The notes beneath the pieces were generated by a model. That model searched no databases, was not told the DNA's origin, and was given only the letters and a program-made list of their open reading frames with translations. Below are positions 3,138 through 43,180 of a stretch of 43,851 bases of DNA, piece by piece. Position numbers and translations under genes: made by a program. Source of the stretch: an uncultured Lachnospiraceae bacterium (GTDB lineage: Bacteria > Bacillota > Clostridia > Lachnospirales > Lachnospiraceae); NCBI GenBank assembly GCA_948470905.1, contig CAOKQK010000023.1, positions 1-43,851 of the forward strand, read 5' to 3'. Position 1 is the first letter of the stretch. Each line of letters starts with the position of its first letter.

Positions 3138-3250
3138 GACAATAGAATTCTTTTCTGGAAAAATTCTATTGTCTGGAAAATTTCTTTATGCTCGTGCAGC
3201 ACGGCATAAAGTCAACTGTGTTGACTTGACTCATTGCTTGCGGGAATAAA
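3138..3250. repeat. Three-hairpin array ending in repeat terminus
   Basis: Three consecutive hairpins are visible. GACAATAGAATT/AATTCTATTGTC (3138-3173) is a perfect 12 bp. TTTATG-CGTGC/GCACG-CATAAA lies at about 3184-3210. AGTCAAC/GTTGACT lies at about 3210-3226. They end in TTGACTCATTGCTTGCGGG AATAAA, the terminal sequence of the dispersed repeat family described at 19704-19882. No gene is seen in the 3006-3367 gap. Confidence 0.6.
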
Positions 3251-3282: not shown

Positions 3283-3356
3283 GGGACATCAATCTTACAG
3301 CCCTGCATAGCAGAATGCATTTCTCTCCGGACTTGCGGCTCATTGCCAAGGAACCC
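3283..3356 (+). repeat. Dispersed TIR repeat, short derivative
   Basis: It begins GGGACATCAATCTTACAGC and ends GGACTTGCGGCTCATTGCC, matching the two ends of the 19704-19882 element (GGGACATCAAGCTTGCAGC and GGACTTGTAACTCATTGCC) with the middle deleted. It lies just downstream of the serS stop codon. Confidence 0.65.
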
Positions 3357-8344: not shown

Positions 8345-8739
8345 AGTTATTTGCCTTTCGTCGATTTACGCAGTTTTCTTTCATCTATATTGGTTTACTC
8401 AAGAACTAATTATAACACTTATTTTATTATATAGCTATTATTATTTTAAAACTTTAACATTTTTATTGCAACAGCTCAAGCAGGTCATTTAACTTACAAG
8501 TGTACATACAAAGTATAAAAATTATATTTCAGTATCCAAAAGCCTTGCAATAAGTGCATGGCAATTATTTTTTAACTGCTGCTTTAATTGCAGGAAAAGC
8601 TGGGTAAACTGCTGCTTATTATCCAGGCTCAGCTAAACCAATAGATATGTTTATGAGCATTTTTTTGCCCTTCTGCCTTTATGTTTCACATTAAACTTTA
8701 AAAAGGTCTATGAAATTTTTACCATATATATTTGTTTAT

Positions 8740-8786
8740 TCCTGTAGATAAAATGCCAAGTGCCGTTCCTGCAAAAAATTATATTT
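8740..8786. repeat. Decayed dispersed repeat
   Basis: GTTTATTCCTGTAG followed by AAGTGCCGTTCCTGC and AATT matches the terminus and interior of the copy at 22772-22856 (TTTATTCCTGCGG on its reverse strand, AAGTGCCGTGCCTGC). It is a strongly degraded copy. Confidence 0.45.
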
Positions 8787-8907
8787 ATATTGGCGTTAGT
8801 CCAAATTTGGGTTGGTGGCTGTATTATTACGCTGCAAACAGCGGAAAATCAAACCCTTCTTTTGCTTAAATATCATGTCCTCTGTAAACAATAAAATAAT
8901 CAACTTA

Positions 8908-8923: not shown

Positions 8924-8959
8924 TTTTATTATTGCAGGCAATAAGAAAAGATGCTAAAG

Positions 8960-8988
8960 GTTTTGAAAAATGCCGCGAGGATCACATA
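8960..8988 (-). repeat. Fragment of dispersed repeat
   Basis: TTTTGAAAAATGCCGCGAGGATCACA matches the block CTTGACAAATGCCGCGAGGGTGACA of the copy at 32153-32350. Only this module is recognisable. Confidence 0.5.
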
Positions 8989-10155: not shown

Positions 10156-10206
10156 AATATCTCCTTCATAAAGTGGTATCAGTCAATCAATAACCACACG
10201 ACAAAC

Positions 10207-10282
10207 GGAATGCGCTCATAGGGCGCCATGATATGTGACCCTCGCGGCATTCACCAAGGTCTTGCGGACATTGGTTCATTGC
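10207..10282 (+). repeat. Dispersed TIR repeat, deletion derivative
   Basis: It reads GGAATGCGCTCATAGG, then TGACCCTCGCGGCATTCACC, AAGGT and finally TTGGTTCATTGCC. Order and orientation follow the full copy at 19704-19882, with the GAAGTAAAC hairpin missing. It sits inside the two-component operon, between the small unknown gene and the response regulator. Confidence 0.6.
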
Positions 10283-10320
10283 CTTTATGAATCAAAATCT
10301 CTTTCCTAAAACTAAACACC

Positions 10321-15950: not shown

Positions 15951-16000
15951 AAATACCTCTTATCCGCTAAGGAACTGCCCCTAGTACAAGATCAGAAATC

Positions 16001-16045
16001 CCGCTGCAGGCAACGGATACAAGCCTGTCCTCGCAGGAATAAAAT
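16001..16045 (+). repeat. Fragment of dispersed repeat
   Basis: CCGCTGCAGGCAACGGATAC, then AAGCCTGTCCTCGCAGG AATAAA, has both ends of the family (GCAGGCAA and GCAGGAATAAA) brought close together. It is a very short internally deleted copy between jag and mnmE. Confidence 0.5.
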
Positions 16046-19270: not shown

Positions 19271-19314
19271 GAAAATTCAGCAAAAATCACGCATTTATTG
19301 GCAAAGAAAAAAAA

Positions 19315-19630
19315 TTTTCAAGTTATACACAGAGATATCCACATATTACATCTGAAAAAAGTTATACACACAATGTGCATTTTCTGTGAATAACTCAGAT
19401 AATTTATATTTTTTCATGTGCAATAAATGTGCAAAATCCAAAAATTCCTCTCAACCACAAGTAATTTATAAAAACCATATTTATCCACTTATTCACAACG
19501 ATATCCACATTCCTTATTCACATCTCATTTTATAAACATAGTTATGAACAACTTGTGGATAACTTTATCCATATAATGTTTATAACTAACATTTGAAATA
19601 TCAATTAATATATATTAAAATGTAAATGTC
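19315..19630. other. oriC: DnaA-box cluster and AT-rich region
   Basis: At least nine matches or near matches to the DnaA box TTATCCACA lie between rpmH and dnaA. They are TTATACACA at 19323 and 19362, ATATCCACA at 19335 and 19501, TGTGAATAA at 19385, TTATCCACT at 19481, TTATTCACA at 19489 and 19514, the perfect TGTGGATAA at 19554 and TTATCCATA at 19565. A very AT-rich stretch (19525-19630) follows and could be the unwinding element. The dnaA-dnaN gap may hold a second part, as in Bacillus. Confidence 0.9.
19593..19621 (+). promoter_or_regulatory. Candidate dnaA promoter
   Basis: TTGAAA, a 17-bp spacer and TAAAAT lie just right of the DnaA boxes and about 310 bp upstream of the dnaA ATG. Overlap with the box cluster would allow autoregulation by DnaA. 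The AT-rich context makes chance matches easy. Confidence 0.4.
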
Positions 19631-19703
19631 TGGTATAACATTGCTTAAATTCCTGCGAGCGTGTAAAATCAGGCTGTATATAAAAGACATCATAATTAAA
19701 TCT

Positions 19704-19882
19704 CCCTCCGCAGGCAATGGGACATCAAGCTTGCAGCGCCGCAGAGCGCAATGCGTCCAAGGGACGCTATGGTCATGTCCTTTAGGACATTGCTACCATC
19801 GCAGCATTCGCCAAGGTCCCAGAGAAGTAAACCTTAAGGAAGTTTACTTCCCTGGACTTGTAACTCATTGCCTGGGGGAATA
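19704..19882 (+). repeat. Dispersed TIR repeat, fullest copy (dnaA leader)
   Basis: A 179-bp element lies in the dnaA leader. The ends are inverted repeats: CCGCAGGCAATGGGACA at the left and, at the right, the complement of CCCCAGGCAATGAGTTACAAG. Internal hairpins are GCGTCC/GGACGC, ATGTCCT/AGGACAT and GAAGTAAACCTT/AAGGAAGTTTACTTC. The copy at 32153-32350 matches over most of this length in reverse orientation. It encodes no protein. Confidence 0.8.
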
Positions 19883-19886
19883 AAAA

Positions 19887-19917
19887 ATGGACTTGCGGCT
19901 CACTGCCTGCGGGAACC
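19887..19917 (+). repeat. Extra repeat terminus next to dnaA
   Basis: TGGACTTGCGGCTCACTGCC, then TGCGGGAACC, repeats the right end of the element just upstream and matches 3343-3362. It provides an in-frame ATG at 19887 that extends the dnaA frame artificially. Confidence 0.6.
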
Positions 19918-19934
19918 AAGAAAGGTCTGAGAAA

Positions 19935-21314
19935 ATGGATGAAATAAAAGAAAACTGGCTTGCCATAAAAGACATTATCAGAAAAGAATACATCTTGTCC
20001 GACATTGCCTATGAGACCTGGATCTCCCCTCTTGAATATTATAATGTGGCAAATGATGTGGTAAATATCATTGTGCCGCCCAGCAAGGCTCAGCTGCTGG
20101 ATTATTATTCTACCAAATATAAGGATCCCTTTCGAGTTACCATTACAGAAATGTTTGATAACCATAATTATGATGTCCAGTTCATCCTGGAAAGCGATGT
20201 GGCTAAGGCAGAAATGGAGAATCCGGCCCCTTCGCCCGTACCTTCCACAAATAATGTCAATTATGAAAACGCAAACCTGAACCCAAAGTATATATTTGAT
20301 ACTTTTGTGGTGGGAAGCAACAATGAATTCGCGCATTCCGCCGCCCTGGCCGTGGCGGAATCACCTGGGGATGCCTACAACCCCCTTTACCTGTACGGGG
20401 GGCCGGGACTGGGCAAGACTCACCTGATGCATTCCATCGGACATTACATCCTGGAGCAGTTTCCGGAGAAAAAGGTGATCTATGTCACCAGTGAGGATTT
20501 CACAAACGAAGTCATCGAATCCATCCGAGGCGGGAACAAAGCGGTTTCCATGGCAAAACTCCGCGAAAAATACCGGACTGTGGATGTCCTCATGATAGAT
20601 GATATACAATTTATCATAGGAAAAGAAAGTACGCAGGAAGAATTTTTCCACACCTTTAACACGCTCCACGCCGCAAGGAAACAGATCATCCTTTCATCGG
20701 ACAAGAACCCGAAGGAGATAAAGCCACTGGACGAGCGTATCCGCTCCCGTTTTGAGTGGGGGCTGACCGCTGACATCCAGGCTCCCGACTATGAGACAAG
20801 AATGGCAATCCTGCGCAAAAACGCGGAAGTTTACAGAAAGAAGATTGACGAGGAAATCATCAAGTATATTGCCACAAACATAAAATCCAACATCAGGGAG
20901 CTGGAAGGCGCCTTTAACAAGATCATCGCCTTTTCAAAGCTGAATAAGGTTGATCTGGAAGATTTGACATTGGAATCCGCAGAAGAAGCATTAAAAGATA
21001 TCATCTCCCCCAACAAGGCAAAGGAAATCACTCCTACCCTTATCATCAACACTGTTGCAGAGCATTTTGGCGTAAGGCCTGAGGACATTACTTCCAAGAA
21101 AAGAAACTCGGAGTTCGTGCAGCCAAGGCAGGTTGTCATGTACCTCTGTCGGGAGCTGACAGAAAACTCTCTCAGCGCCGTAGGAAAGATTCTGGGCAAA
21201 AAGGATCATACCACTGTTATCCACGGTATCAAAAAGATTGAGGCTGAGCTGGAGCACAACGAAGAATTGAAAAATAAAATTGATATCATAACAAAGAAGC
21301 TGAATCCTTCTTAG
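19935..21314 (+). CDS. dnaA: Chromosomal replication initiator DnaA
   Basis: 459 residues from ATG at 19935 (MDEIKENWLAIKDIIRKEY), with AAAGG upstream. An in-frame ATG at 19887 lies in repeat DNA and is rejected. DnaA binds the boxes at 19323-19573 and opens oriC. Domain I spans 1-80, a linker 80-110, the AAA+ domain III has Walker A GGPGLGKTHL and Walker B VDVLMIDDIQF, and domain IV has RQVVMYLCRELTENSLSAVG and the signature KDHTTVIHG. It is followed by dnaN after 311 bp. Confidence 0.98.
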   Translation: MDEIKENWLAIKDIIRKEYILSDIAYETWISPLEYYNVANDVVNIIVPPSKAQLLDYYSTKYKDPFRVTITEMFDNHNYDVQFILESDVAKAEMENPAPSPVPSTNNVNYENANLNPKYIFDTFVVGSNNEFAHSAALAVAESPGDAYNPLYLYGGPGLGKTHLMHSIGHYILEQFPEKKVIYVTSEDFTNEVIESIRGGNKAVSMAKLREKYRTVDVLMIDDIQFIIGKESTQEEFFHTFNTLHAARKQIILSSDKNPKEIKPLDERIRSRFEWGLTADIQAPDYETRMAILRKNAEVYRKKIDEEIIKYIATNIKSNIRELEGAFNKIIAFSKLNKVDLEDLTLESAEEALKDIISPNKAKEITPTLIINTVAEHFGVRPEDITSKKRNSEFVQPRQVVMYLCRELTENSLSAVGKILGKKDHTTVIHGIKKIEAELEHNEELKNKIDIITKKLNPS

Positions 21315-22771: not shown

Positions 22772-22856
22772 CCTCCGCGGGCAATGAGACAAGTGCCGTG
22801 CCTGCGCGGATAATTTGCGGATGTCGCGGGGGTTTTGTCTCATTGCCCGCAGGAAT
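22772..22856 (+). repeat. Short dispersed repeat with near-perfect TIRs
   Basis: An 85-bp element between dnaN and yaaA. The left end CCGCGGGCAATGAGACAA (22775-22792) and the complement of the right end TTGTCTCATTGCCCGCAGG (22835-22853) agree at all but one position. The interior GTGCCGTGCCTGCGCGG differs from the long copies. In RNA it would form one long stem-loop in the middle of the replication operon. Confidence 0.8.
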
Positions 22857-32129: not shown

Positions 32130-32152
32130 TGTACTTTCCTGCGTTATTGTTT

Positions 32153-32350
32153 TATTTCTGCGGGCAATGAGCTACAAGTTCAGGGAAGTAAACTTTTTAA
32201 AAGTTTATTTCTCTGGGACCTTGACAAATGCCGCGAGGGTGACAATGTCCTAAAGGACATAACCATAGCGTCTCTTGGACGCGTTGCGCTCTGCAGCGTT
32301 GTAAGCTTGATCCCCATGCATCATGGATGCATTGTGCTTTGCAGCGGGAT
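32153..32350 (-). repeat. Dispersed TIR repeat, full-length reverse copy
   Basis: Read on the minus strand it reproduces the 19704-19882 element in order: AAGCTTACAACGCTGCAGAG, GCGTCCAAGAGACGC, ATGTCCTTTAGGACAT, CCTCGCGGCATTTGTCAAGG, the AAACTTTTAAAAAGTTTACTT hairpin (split by one base here) and TTGTAGCTCATTGCCCGCAG. At the far end a second, diverged copy of the GCGTC-GCTCTGCAGCG module (32315-32350) is attached. Open frames through it resemble frames through the dnaA-leader copy. Confidence 0.8.
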
Positions 32351-32477
32351 ATTTGATTGTAGTTGCCGTGATGTGTTGCTACACCTTTTATGTGTAAAAA
32401 AGCTATGACCGGAACCATTCCTTAAATATGATTTTATTATACTATGCCGAAAAACAGAATGCAATATAATGCCAGGA

Positions 32478-37325: not shown

Positions 37326-37580
37326 AAAAACAGCCTCGAAGTAAAGAGGCGGAACTGGAAAACAGCCTCGTAGCGGAGACGCCCCCGGGAGAATTTTCAG
37401 ATGCGTACTTTTGCAGCTGAAAATTGCTCCCAGACAAGGGGGGCGTAGAAGCGTAGAGGCGGAACTGGAAAACAGCCTCGAAACGGAGACGCCCCCGGAA
37501 GGAAATTGCAGCTGAGTTACTTATCAGATGGAATTTCCTTCCAGCTAAGGGGGGGGCGTAGAAGTGCAGAGGCGGAACTG
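37326..37580 (+). repeat. Tandem nested-hairpin repeats before GH112 gene
   Basis: Three direct copies of AACAGCCTCG ... GAGGCGGAACTG occur (37326-37357, 37358-37467, 37468-37580). The first is only a small CCTC/GAGG hairpin. In the second and third, GCCTC/GAGGC encloses ACGCCCCC/GGGGGGCGT, which encloses an inner stem. The inner stem is GGGAG-AATTTTCAG/CTGAAAATT-CTCCC in one and GGAAGGAAATT/AATTTCCTTCC in the other. Inner sequences differ but pairing is kept. The last copy ends 19 bp before the GH112 start. An artificial in-frame extension of the GH112 gene runs through it. Confidence 0.8.
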
Positions 37581-37598
37581 ATATTAGGAGGATTAAAA

Positions 37599-39755
37599 AT
37601 GTCTAAGGCAAAGGGCGGATTCACTCTCCCGGGGGAATCCGGATTTGAACAATTGACTTTAAAGATGGCGGAGAAGTGGGGAGCGGACGTCATAAGGGAC
37701 AGTGACGGGACAGTGCTCTCAGACGAGATCGTACATGCGGGCTACGGGATTTATTCTACCATATGCATTATCCGCGACCATAACGAATGGGCAAAGAAGA
37801 ATCTGGATAAGCTGCAGCAGACCTTCCTCTGCACGCCTGCAAAGGTGGCGGAGAGTGAGAATGTCACGATCAATCTTATGGAGAGCTTTTTTGACCAGCA
37901 GTTCACTGTCAATGACAAAGACGCTGCCATGAAGTACTGGGAAGTTTATGACAGGACTGTCAATGAAAAGGTTGACGGCTCCAAGTGGAGCTATGACAAG
38001 GCAGCAGGGACTGTTACCGTAAAGGGGATCACCCCCTTTCACAAATATACGGTGAGCTTCCTTGCCTACCGTATCTGGGAAGAAATTTCCATGTACAATC
38101 ATACCACCAACAACTGGGACAAGGAGCATTTGATGCAGATTGATCCCAGGTATCCTGAAACGCAGGAATATATGCTGGGCTGGATGAAAAACTGGTGTGA
38201 AACCCACCCTGACACTACTGTCGTCCGCTTTACATCCATGTTCTACAACTTTGTGTGGATCTGGGGAAGTGATGAGAGAAACCGTCAGATGTTCTCCGAT
38301 TGGGGCTCCTATGACTTTACGGTGAGCGATATCGCCCTGGATGAATTTGCGAAGAAATATGGCTATTCCATGACAGCGGAGGATTTTATCAATAAGGGAC
38401 AGCTTCATGTGACCCATATGCCCGGAACGCAGCGCAAAGCTGACTGGATGGCATTTATCAATGATTTTGTCATCAGCTTCGGCAGGAAGCTCATAGATAT
38501 GGTGCATGAGTACGGCAAGAAAGCCTATGTGTTCTATGACGACAGCTGGGTAGGTGTGGAGCCATATAATGGAAGATTCCAGGAATTTGGCTTTGACGGC
38601 CTGATCAAGTGTGTGTTCTCCGGTTATGAGGCAAGGCTTTGCGCAGGCGTGGATGTGCCCACCCATGAGCTGCGCCTGCATCCTTACCTGTTCCCGGTGG
38701 GGCTGGGCGGCGCGCCTACCTTTGCGGAGGGCGGCGATCCTACCCTGGATGCGAAGAAATATTGGAACAGTGTAAGGCGTGCCCTGCTGCGGGCAAAAAT
38801 CGACAGGATCGGCCTGGGCGGATACCTGCATCTGGTTGAGCCTTTCCCGGATTTCTGCGACTATATTGAAAAGGTTTCTGACGAGTTCCGCCTGATCCGC
38901 ACCTTCCATGATGCGGGCAAGCCTTACACGATCAAGACAAAGGTGGCGGTGCTGCACAGCTGGGGAGCGCTTCGTTCCTGGACCTTGTCCGGGCACTTCC
39001 ATGAGACTTATATGCATGATCTGATCCATATCAATGAGGCACTCTCCGGCCTGCCTGTGGATGTGAAGTTTATTTCCTTTGAGGATGTGAAAAACGGCGC
39101 ATTGAAAGATGTGGACGTGGTGATCAACGCCGGCTACGCGGGAAGCGCATGGAGCGGCGGTGACAACTGGAAGGATGATGAAATCGTCACCATCCTGACC
39201 AAATGGGTACATGACGGCGGGACATTCCTGGGTGTAAATGAGCCTTCTGCAGTGGAGGGTTATGATTATAACTTCCGCATGGCACATGTACTGGGTATTG
39301 ACAAGGATACGGGGGCGCGTGTCTGCCATGGAAAGTGGAGCTTCGAGGCAGAGGATACCGAGGAGCTGCTTCCCGAAGGAGCAACTGTGGAAAGCAAAGA
39401 TAACCTCTATCTCACGGATGGCAGGGCAAAGGTGCTGATGGCAGATGAAGATAACAGGCCGCTGGTGACGGTAAATCAGTTTGGCAAAGGAAAGGGCATC
39501 TACCTCGCTTCCTTCCAGGTGGATCTGGAGAATACGAGAATGCTGTACCAGCTCATTCGTTATGCAGGCGGCGAGGGTACAAGCGGTCTGTATATGACTG
39601 ACAATCTCTATACGGAGTGCGCATACTATCCCGAGAGCGGCAAGCTGGTAGTTATAAACAACAGCGATCAGGAACAGACAACTACGATCCCTACGGAGAA
39701 GGGTGACAGAACTGTGACGATTGCGGCGTACGATACCACATTTATAGAGCTGTAA
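37599..39755 (+). CDS. GH112 galactosyl-rhamnose/HexNAc phosphorylase
   Basis: 718 residues from ATG at 37599 (MSKAKGGFTLPGESGFEQLT) with AGGAGG upstream; an upstream in-frame start at 37506 lies in the hairpin repeat and is rejected. GH112 enzymes phosphorolyse beta-galactosyl disaccharides to galactose-1-phosphate. Family segments include EKWGADVIRDSDGTVLSDEI, RVLFTSMFYN-type sequence (RFTSMFYNFVWIW), and YVFYDDSWVGVEPY. Because the neighbours degrade rhamnogalacturonan, D-galactosyl-beta-1,4-L-rhamnose phosphorylase is the likelier specificity than galacto/lacto-N-biose phosphorylase. That choice is inferred from context. No signal peptide; cytoplasmic. Confidence 0.9.
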   Translation: MSKAKGGFTLPGESGFEQLTLKMAEKWGADVIRDSDGTVLSDEIVHAGYGIYSTICIIRDHNEWAKKNLDKLQQTFLCTPAKVAESENVTINLMESFFDQQFTVNDKDAAMKYWEVYDRTVNEKVDGSKWSYDKAAGTVTVKGITPFHKYTVSFLAYRIWEEISMYNHTTNNWDKEHLMQIDPRYPETQEYMLGWMKNWCETHPDTTVVRFTSMFYNFVWIWGSDERNRQMFSDWGSYDFTVSDIALDEFAKKYGYSMTAEDFINKGQLHVTHMPGTQRKADWMAFINDFVISFGRKLIDMVHEYGKKAYVFYDDSWVGVEPYNGRFQEFGFDGLIKCVFSGYEARLCAGVDVPTHELRLHPYLFPVGLGGAPTFAEGGDPTLDAKKYWNSVRRALLRAKIDRIGLGGYLHLVEPFPDFCDYIEKVSDEFRLIRTFHDAGKPYTIKTKVAVLHSWGALRSWTLSGHFHETYMHDLIHINEALSGLPVDVKFISFEDVKNGALKDVDVVINAGYAGSAWSGGDNWKDDEIVTILTKWVHDGGTFLGVNEPSAVEGYDYNFRMAHVLGIDKDTGARVCHGKWSFEAEDTEELLPEGATVESKDNLYLTDGRAKVLMADEDNRPLVTVNQFGKGKGIYLASFQVDLENTRMLYQLIRYAGGEGTSGLYMTDNLYTECAYYPESGKLVVINNSDQEQTTTIPTEKGDRTVTIAAYDTTFIEL

Positions 39756-39756
39756 T

Positions 39757-39845
39757 TCCCGATGGCAATGAGCCACAAGCCCAGGAAAATAAATTTCCCG
39801 AGAAGTAAACTTCTGTGAGGTCATGGCGAAAGCCGTGAGGATCAA
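39757..39845 (-). repeat. Dispersed TIR repeat, truncated copy
   Basis: On the minus strand it contains GAAGTTTACTTCTCGGGAAA followed by CTGGGCTTGTGGCTCATTGCC, matching the right half of the 19704-19882 element. The left half is reduced to a GCCGTGAGGATCA-like block. It immediately follows the GH112 stop codon. Confidence 0.65.
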
Positions 39846-39876
39846 CACCCCCGCTGCACTGTAGCGGGGGTGTTGA
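39842..39876 (+). terminator. Strong GC hairpin after GH112
   Basis: TCAACACCCCCGCT pairs perfectly over 14 bp with AGCGGGGGTGTTGA around a 7-base loop. The following bases CTTTCAGTT are only moderately T-rich. It is the likely end of the GH105-CE12-GH112 transcript and lies between convergent genes. Confidence 0.65.
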
Positions 39877-39895
39877 CTTTCAGTTGGTTACAATC

Positions 39896-43134: not shown

Positions 43135-43180
43135 TCAGGGTTCTCTGGGATCTTAATAAATGCCACGAGGGTCAAAATCC
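43135..43180 (-). repeat. Fragment of dispersed repeat
   Basis: TTCTCTGGGATCTTAATAAA, then TGCCACGAGGGTCAAAA, matches the TTCTCTGGGACCTTGACAAA, TGCCGCGAGGGTGACAA segment of the copy at 32153-32350. No termini are preserved. Confidence 0.55.

Follow-up and report, generated by a model that had tools for sequence, protein, structure and literature searches.

The dispersed repeats of the window (the whole 43,851-nt stretch analysed, one contig of a 3.71-Mb draft genome of 157 contigs that is 89.9% complete) probably belong to a family of non-autonomous mobile elements of the IS200/IS605 type (HUH, single-stranded DNA), best described as PATE-like; we put the probability of this reading at about 0.65. 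That the elements are mobile and non-autonomous is very probable in itself. The PATE-like label was chosen because the features stated for PATEs are found here, except kinship to a complete transposon, where only the right end is alike. The evidence comes from the anatomy of the copies, their target sites, their strand orientation and a search for the mobilizing enzyme.

Copies in the window

The initial annotation had placed about ten dispersed copies in the window. Dispersal held in the window and in the genome, and a covariance model of the left stem recovered six of the eleven places at E<0.001: 19796-19881 (−), 32154-32239 (+), 39755-39841 (+), 10239-10292 (−), 22772-22856 (both strands) and 3196-3247 (−). 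The first of these matches by construction, as 19796-19881 is among the 41 copies on which the model was trained. Weak matches lay at 8928-8981 (E 0.097), 3301-3354 (E 0.88) and 8738-8811 (E 3.1). The model recovered neither position 16001 nor 43135-43180, and at the latter part of the left stem's right arm (AATGCCACGAGGGTCA; 43153..43176, plus strand) is present as a sequence match.

The copy with which the annotation was concerned is a long form at 19699..19878 on the minus strand (68.1 bits with the left-stem model, in whose training set it stands). Its left end, CCCCCAGGCAATGAG, runs from 19878 downwards and is preceded on the minus strand by TTTTTTATT; the interior carries the apical AGTAAACTT hairpin followed by GTCCTAAAGGAC and GCGTCC hairpins, and the right end is decayed (...CCCATTGCCTGCGGAGGGAGATT). 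A second long form occupies 32157..32358 on the plus strand (62.7 bits), with the target TTTTATT at 32150-32156 and the right end GCAGCGGGATATTTGATT. The copy at 39758..39878 (plus strand) is complete, reading CCCGATGGCAATGAGCC at the left and TCAACACCCCCGC...GCGGGGGTGTTGACT at the right. Other copies are reduced or rearranged. At 10206..10289 (minus strand) the left stem and AATGCCGCGAGGGTCA are still recognizable in a decayed copy (E 4.8e-7 for 10239-10292), and 3196..3247 (minus strand; E 3.3e-4) is a left-end copy with other apical hairpins (AAGTCAACACAGTTGACTT). The weak matches correspond to a decayed left-end copy at 3301..3354 (minus strand) and to a decayed copy with a AATGCCGCGAGGATCACA core at 8928..8986 (plus strand). 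The copy at 22772..22856 is symmetric, with one left end on each side (GGCAATGAG ... CTCATTGCC), and has no single strand.

The 19699-19878 copy sits just upstream of dnaA, which dnaN then follows; on its other side we noted by eye TTATCCACA stretches that we take to be DnaA-box-like. At 19887-19937 the listed dnaA open reading frame begins inside a decayed element end, where a second-end remnant GGTTCCCGCAGGCAGTGAGCCGCAAGTC (19890..19917, minus strand; GGCAGTGAG match) lies just upstream of the probable gene start. The true start of dnaA is likely the ATG at 19935, and remains of the element family would therefore form part of the dnaA leader.

Two further features of the window were recorded. 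A lacto-N-biose phosphorylase gene (37506-39755; three Pfam domains) lies directly upstream of the copy at 39758, and a separate dispersed palindrome of the TAACAGTTCAGACAGGTCACTGAACTGTT type has five copies at 69-100% (1866-1894, 5967, 8469, 26504 and 31358).

Distribution in the genome and beyond

With up to two mismatches the left-end motif occurs at 194 places in the 3.7-Mb genome, against none for the reversed control. BLAST with the 19699-19878 copy gave 44 own-genome matches at E≤0.001, and a short-form query gave 72 at E≤0.01 when partial matches were counted. The same left-end pattern was found 43 times in genus genome G001, 23 times in G005 and 0-5 times in each of the other 16 genus genomes searched; it was absent from all 12 genomes searched from the order's other families. 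A genus-wide search with the model built from the 41 copies, of the kind the initial annotation had proposed, gave matches in 73 of 138 genomes (38 candidates were scored per genome, so that counts for single genomes are 'at least'). Among 392 genomes drawn from the order, with 13 candidates scored per genome and the share outside Lachnospiraceae not stated, 31 matched at E≤1e-4, all within Lachnospiraceae. An exact 24-position left-end pattern hit 17 stretches among named genome contigs, 16 of them from the Lachnospiraceae MAG NALB_7861_4. A left end also occurs on a contig assigned to a MAG of Candidatus Gastranaerophilales, through mis-binning or transfer.

Carriage on phages or plasmids was considered and dropped: viral contigs held no exact match to the left-end pattern, and plasmid and phage collections gave no match with one copy each as query. 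Two matches to an inner 19-mer looked like chance.

Ends and internal hairpins

Elements measure about 90-205 bp, spanning from CCCGCGGGCAATGAG at the left to TTGAYT at the right. In the forward direction (the 19699-19878 copy is reversed) the left end CCCGCGGGCAATGAG pairs imperfectly with ATGCCGCGAGGG, and this stem encloses the further pairings GAGTCA/TGAC and GTCC/GGAC. The apical hairpin varies among copies (AGTAAACTT..AAGTTTACTT, GAGAAGTTTACTTCTC, AGGGAATCATGATTCCCT, ATGCTTGCAT and others). Long forms insert extra hairpins (GTCCTAAAGGAC and GCGTCC..GGACGC) between the left stem and the right end, and the set order of internal hairpins described at the outset was confirmed. The right end has the form TCAA-NNN-CCCC...GGGG-N'N'N'-TTGAYT, so that typical copies carry palindromes near both ends. 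Among 39 copies with both ends the ends are constant, and the flanks seem random from −7 outwards and beyond the right end.

A G-run with TGAYT within 260 bases was found in 48 of 90 own-genome copies (6.6% of random windows) and the stricter paired form of the right end in 31 of 90 (2.5% of random windows). Neither kind was recognized in 40 of the 90, and these copies may be truncated or decayed.

Inverted ends of the GGCAATGAG type had been proposed as a trait of the family, a view explained by two window copies, 19699-19878 and 22772-22856, in which GGCAAT ends are inverted. These two are exceptions: terminal inverted repeats are not typical, and copies with two left ends are rare, an inverted second left end being found in just two of 90 own-genome entries, which are one locus read from both sides. 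Bare GGCAATGAG-like 9-mers number 25 in the window where 14.4 were expected (1 of 100 shuffles reached as many).

Folding and compensatory change

RNA folding of the copies is far more stable than that of shuffles (z −9.4 for a short copy and −6.3 for the 19699-19878 copy). In the 17-pair left stem, aligned for 41 sequences, 93.2% of cells hold standard pairs, compared with 91.2% for shuffles and no more than 37.9% for slid controls. Cells changed on both sides number 22 against 8.4 in shuffles, and the covariation score is 0.104 against 0.069; none of 500 shuffles came as high in either case. The both-side changes fall mostly at one pair (UA 17, CG 15). The number of pairs with both-side change (4; 66 of 500 shuffles) and of further pair types (13; 71 of 500) was not unusual, the RNAalifold covariation term was small (−0.23), and relatedness of the copies inflates covariation counts.

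The right-end spacer behaves similarly. Its two sides are found as AAA/TTT, ATA/TAT, CAC/GTG, CAT/GTA, TAC/ATG and AGA/TCT, so the stem often stays paired through sequence change, and mismatches occur too (of 53 rows, 9 have ATA/TCT and 8 ATA/TTT; a few rows of this set, such as one at position 2921 of locus L120, are probably not elements). The earlier statement that stems change while pairing is mostly kept thus stands for the frequent pairing and has to be tempered for the mismatches. We regard the pairing changes as partly compensatory, and a functional RNA as a candidate reading of them. Template-switch correction of quasi-palindromes could yield compensatory changes without selection.

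A structured non-coding RNA or a dispersed terminator family, kept for its function with DNA mobility secondary, would account for the strong folding and the compensatory changes, and the right hairpin with its T-run would resemble a terminator readable both ways. The hairpins and pairing changes noted in the initial annotation, which had offered a structured RNA family as one possibility, were borne out, but the pairing is equally expected of single-stranded DNA hairpins. There was no Rfam match at the gathering threshold, and below it snoRNA and microRNA models alone appeared (E 0.27 or worse). Gene context is inconsistent, with 23 copies between genes pointing along with the element (>E>), 20 in <E>, 15 in <E<, 10 in >E< and 16 with one side unknown. 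Moreover, 65 of the 138 genus genomes, many of them drafts, have no match, and in the region 19300-20000 terminator-like sites are absent and promoter-like ones are not in excess. We consider this explanation unlikely.

Target sites and mobility

The clearest trace of movement is an empty site. At locus L208 the sequence reads TTTATT followed directly by CTTCGTC, whereas the occupied site reads TTTATT-element-CTTCGTC. The L208 site already has TTTATT, which therefore belongs to the target. It is the one empty site found and, within this genome, belongs to a repeated sequence: it is supplied by a second repeat family (TAAGGAACTGTCC...GGACAGTTCCTTA) in which L208 reads GCGGATTTATTCTTCGTCATC. At L016/L218 the element sits between TTTATT and CTTCGTCATC, and L054 is occupied at the same place.

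The repeat in question, itself dispersed and with TAAGGAACTGTCC...GGACAGTTCCTTA as its inverted ends, was seen at L208, L016, L054, L044 and L223 and near 15969 in the window, and is sometimes the landing site of the element. One of its arms gave 25 own-genome BLAST matches at E≤10, of which the weakest are probably chance. At the same site, L211 (G000:C58) reads GCGCGG-TTTTTGATT-CTTCATCATC, a right-end remnant without the element and possibly a deletion footprint.

The targets of 91 own-genome copies were TTTATT in 55 cases and TTGATT in 9, the share of ATT being somewhat favoured since it was part of one search pattern. Elements end in ATT, and a 3-bp duplication could hide there; yet in 11 of 66 copies a left ATT faces a right ACT, as in the copy at 39758..39878, where a duplication is thereby excluded. 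The check for target-site duplications thus came out negative, and insertion takes place 3' of a short fixed sequence. Copies abut one another in L126.

These results bear on the earlier description of the family as MITE-like and mobilized in trans. Mobilization in trans is supported by the empty site, the sharp ends, the many near-identical copies and a length too short for a transposase. The MITE comparison fared worse. A classical MITE, with terminal inverted repeats and a DDE transposase as mover, would also be short and multi-copy, and the inverted GGCAAT ends of 19699-19878 and 22772-22856 would suit it; however, typical ends are asymmetric, there is no target duplication, and the copies show an apparent orientation bias. 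The IS200/IS605 (PATE) type fits better, and we judge a MITE highly unlikely.

Single cases (L057, L122 and L074) had suggested targeting of hairpins or terminators, an idea dropped for want of an excess over chance in the larger own-genome set: hairpins lie upstream of the target in 15 of 90 copies and of 55 of 387 control TTTATT sites (p 0.43), and joined flanks pair in 4 of 48 cases against 4.8 in permuted pairs. No empty hairpin belonging to another repeat turned up when looked for. A bridge-RNA (IS110-like) reading was weighed by reasoning and set aside, as right-hand target specificity was not seen in the 39 two-ended copies. RNA-mediated spread by a reverse transcriptase, as in group IIC introns, which insert behind terminators, would likewise fit a T-rich target, the lack of duplication and an orientation bias, but there is no Rfam intron match and no significant hairpin upstream of the target; the probability of this route is very small.

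Strand orientation

We used the GC skew of flanking DNA as a proxy for replication direction, treating copies as independent on unordered contigs. Own-genome copies lie on the positive-skew (G-rich) strand in 65 of 91 cases, or 60 of 84 with longer loci and the window left out; among unused TTTATT sites in non-coding DNA the count is 27 of 61 (Fisher p 0.001 against the 60 of 84). Where flanking genes converge or diverge, 25 of 30 copies are positive. Between co-directional genes the skew is positive for 22 of 23 copies pointing with the genes and for 3 of 15 pointing against them. Local skew here largely follows gene direction, so that the test is confounded, and the 23 copies with against 15 opposing are no significant excess (p 0.26).

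Other sets point the same way. The NALB genome has 16 of 20 copies on the positive strand, a mixed set from other genomes that contains chance pattern matches has 11 of 13, and the model-search loci, a set beginning with one own-genome copy (L261), have 18 of 26 (p 0.08). The Y1-transposase loci of the genus show the same direction in 21 of 24. The strand direction of the element matches what insertion into the lagging-strand template would give, a mode described for IS608 and ISDra2 (PMC6006769). One published IS605 set shows no strand preference (10 of 22; PMC7290912). Since local skew follows gene direction, we lowered our confidence in the single-strand reading from 0.70 to the 0.65 given above.

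Search for a mobilizing enzyme

The link with IS200 is clearest at the right end. A GC-rich perfect hairpin followed within five bases by TGAYT occurs in the 3' region of 11 of 24 Y1 loci and in none of 72 control segments, which held just three such hairpin rows; 6 of 30 Y1 loci were too short for the comparison. By eye, IS200 copies L234, L235 and L248 sit 3' of TTTATT and several others 3' of T-runs. The left end of the element is unlike IS200 left ends, its stem starting at the cut site, and AATGAG could pair with TTTATT only via two G-T pairs (other genera have AACGAG).

The search for a transposase gene with the same ends, as the initial annotation had suggested, gave none among the Y1 loci examined. 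In the own genome the sole Y1 match is L134 (G000:C39:32019-32375), an IS200 with an in-frame TGA, where the element search was no better than E 0.16. None of 26 further Y1 (PF01797) loci (L235-L260) has a gene with the element's ends: a bare GGCAATGAG was present in L240 alone, at over 1 kb from the gene, while element BLAST was no better than E 0.03. In a search for a transposase gene carried between two ends, the open reading frames around copies in the own and other genomes were clustered, and none of the top 12 clusters, inspected by eye, looked transposase-like. A left-end fragment of an L134-type IS lies directly behind an element copy in L024.

Across genomes, Y1 matches do not follow copy number. 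G001, G005 and the NALB genome, all drafts, have no Y1 match over threshold despite many element copies, and a Y1 match is present in 7 of 25 genus genomes with at least 10 model matches (hand count) and in 42 of 113 others (p 0.49). Over 138 genomes, this missing association is a substantive argument against IS200 TnpA being the only mover. Draft assemblies often lose multi-copy IS, so the absence of Y1 is weak evidence. On balance, the IS200 TnpA of the genus itself is a possible mover, at somewhat less than even odds.

The same chemistry would operate in a REPIN-like system, in which a domesticated RAYT (TnpA_REP), its gene lying at another place in the chromosome, moves palindromic repeats. 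The genus does have long Y1 frames (246-338 aa), and compensatory changes and symmetric double-ended copies, here 22772-22856, occur in REPINs (PMC3116915). However, 10 of the 11 matches in frames of at least 246 aa lie in genomes with no listed model match or one, the exception being G122 (338-aa frame, partial 41-bit match) with at least 26. The ends also carry no GTAG/GTGG foot, and typical copies are asymmetric, not inverted doublets. A REPIN-like system therefore seems improbable, if less so than a MITE.

Discussion

The PATE-like reading implies a mechanism that would run as follows. An HUH transposase acting in trans would fold the exposed strand and make its left cut, as we infer, behind TTTATT and its right cut behind TTGAYT. 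The excised circle, with the right-left junction TTGAYT-CCCGCGGG, would then enter single-stranded DNA again, for the most part the lagging-strand template, 3' of a different TTTATT or TTGATT. A copy landing behind the TTGATT end of another would produce tandem arrays, and the inner hairpins would be free to change or be swapped provided that they fold.

A more far-reaching version, which we hold as doubtful, sees the family spread through Lachnospiraceae as an orphan single-strand transposon. Its mover would be an enzyme, HUH or other, so far unconnected with elements of this sort, and its inner hairpins would be swapped as modules with pairing kept, folded shape rather than sequence being inherited.

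As a kind, elements of this sort are known. As a family, the present one has no description in the literature searched, mostly titles and abstract openings, on bcr1, Lachnospiraceae repeats and MITEs, IS200/IS605, REPIN/RAYT and Clostridia intergenic repeats. With it, the single-strand elements described as lacking a transposase would gain a large Lachnospiraceae family whose recent copies and species are numerous enough for covariation to reveal how the ends are recognized. A further question is how such elements multiply in genomes without a visible matching transposase. The copies next to dnaA and close to many genes offer natural experiments for studying termination and replication.

Among known systems, bcr1 of the Bacillus cereus group, likened here by description alone, is also a short, structured, multi-copy intergenic repeat; unlike the element it shows a short TTTAT duplication. 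The IS200 elements of the genus (L134, L232-L254) share the T-rich left flank, the hairpin with TGAYT at the right end (11 of 24) and the apparent strand bias, but they carry tnpA, and by eye their left ends begin in a GTGTCACAG- or GTANGGCAAT-like manner, where an AATAAA-like stretch precedes a short hairpin. REPINs and BIMEs with their RAYT (PMC3116915 and PMC6006769) are likewise intergenic high-copy palindromic repeats with compensatory changes and a proposed link to single-strand transposition; the element differs in the missing GTAG/GTGG foot, the asymmetry of typical copies and the lack of a RAYT gene beside the copies searched.

The closest likeness is to the PATEs (palindrome-associated transposable elements) of Haloquadratum (PMC3119063). 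Both lack terminal inverted repeats and target duplication, have near-terminal palindromes, are too short for a transposase and exist as many divergent copies with nested insertions. A transposase puzzle akin to the present one is stated there too: strain-specific PATE insertions are found although nearly all IS200-type transposases are pseudogenes (PMC3119063). PATE palindromes resemble those of complete IS605-type transposons, whereas here just the right-end plan of hairpin and TGAYT resembles the IS200 of the genus. In further contrast to PATEs, the left stem of the element extends to the cut site, and entire hairpins are exchanged at its apex.
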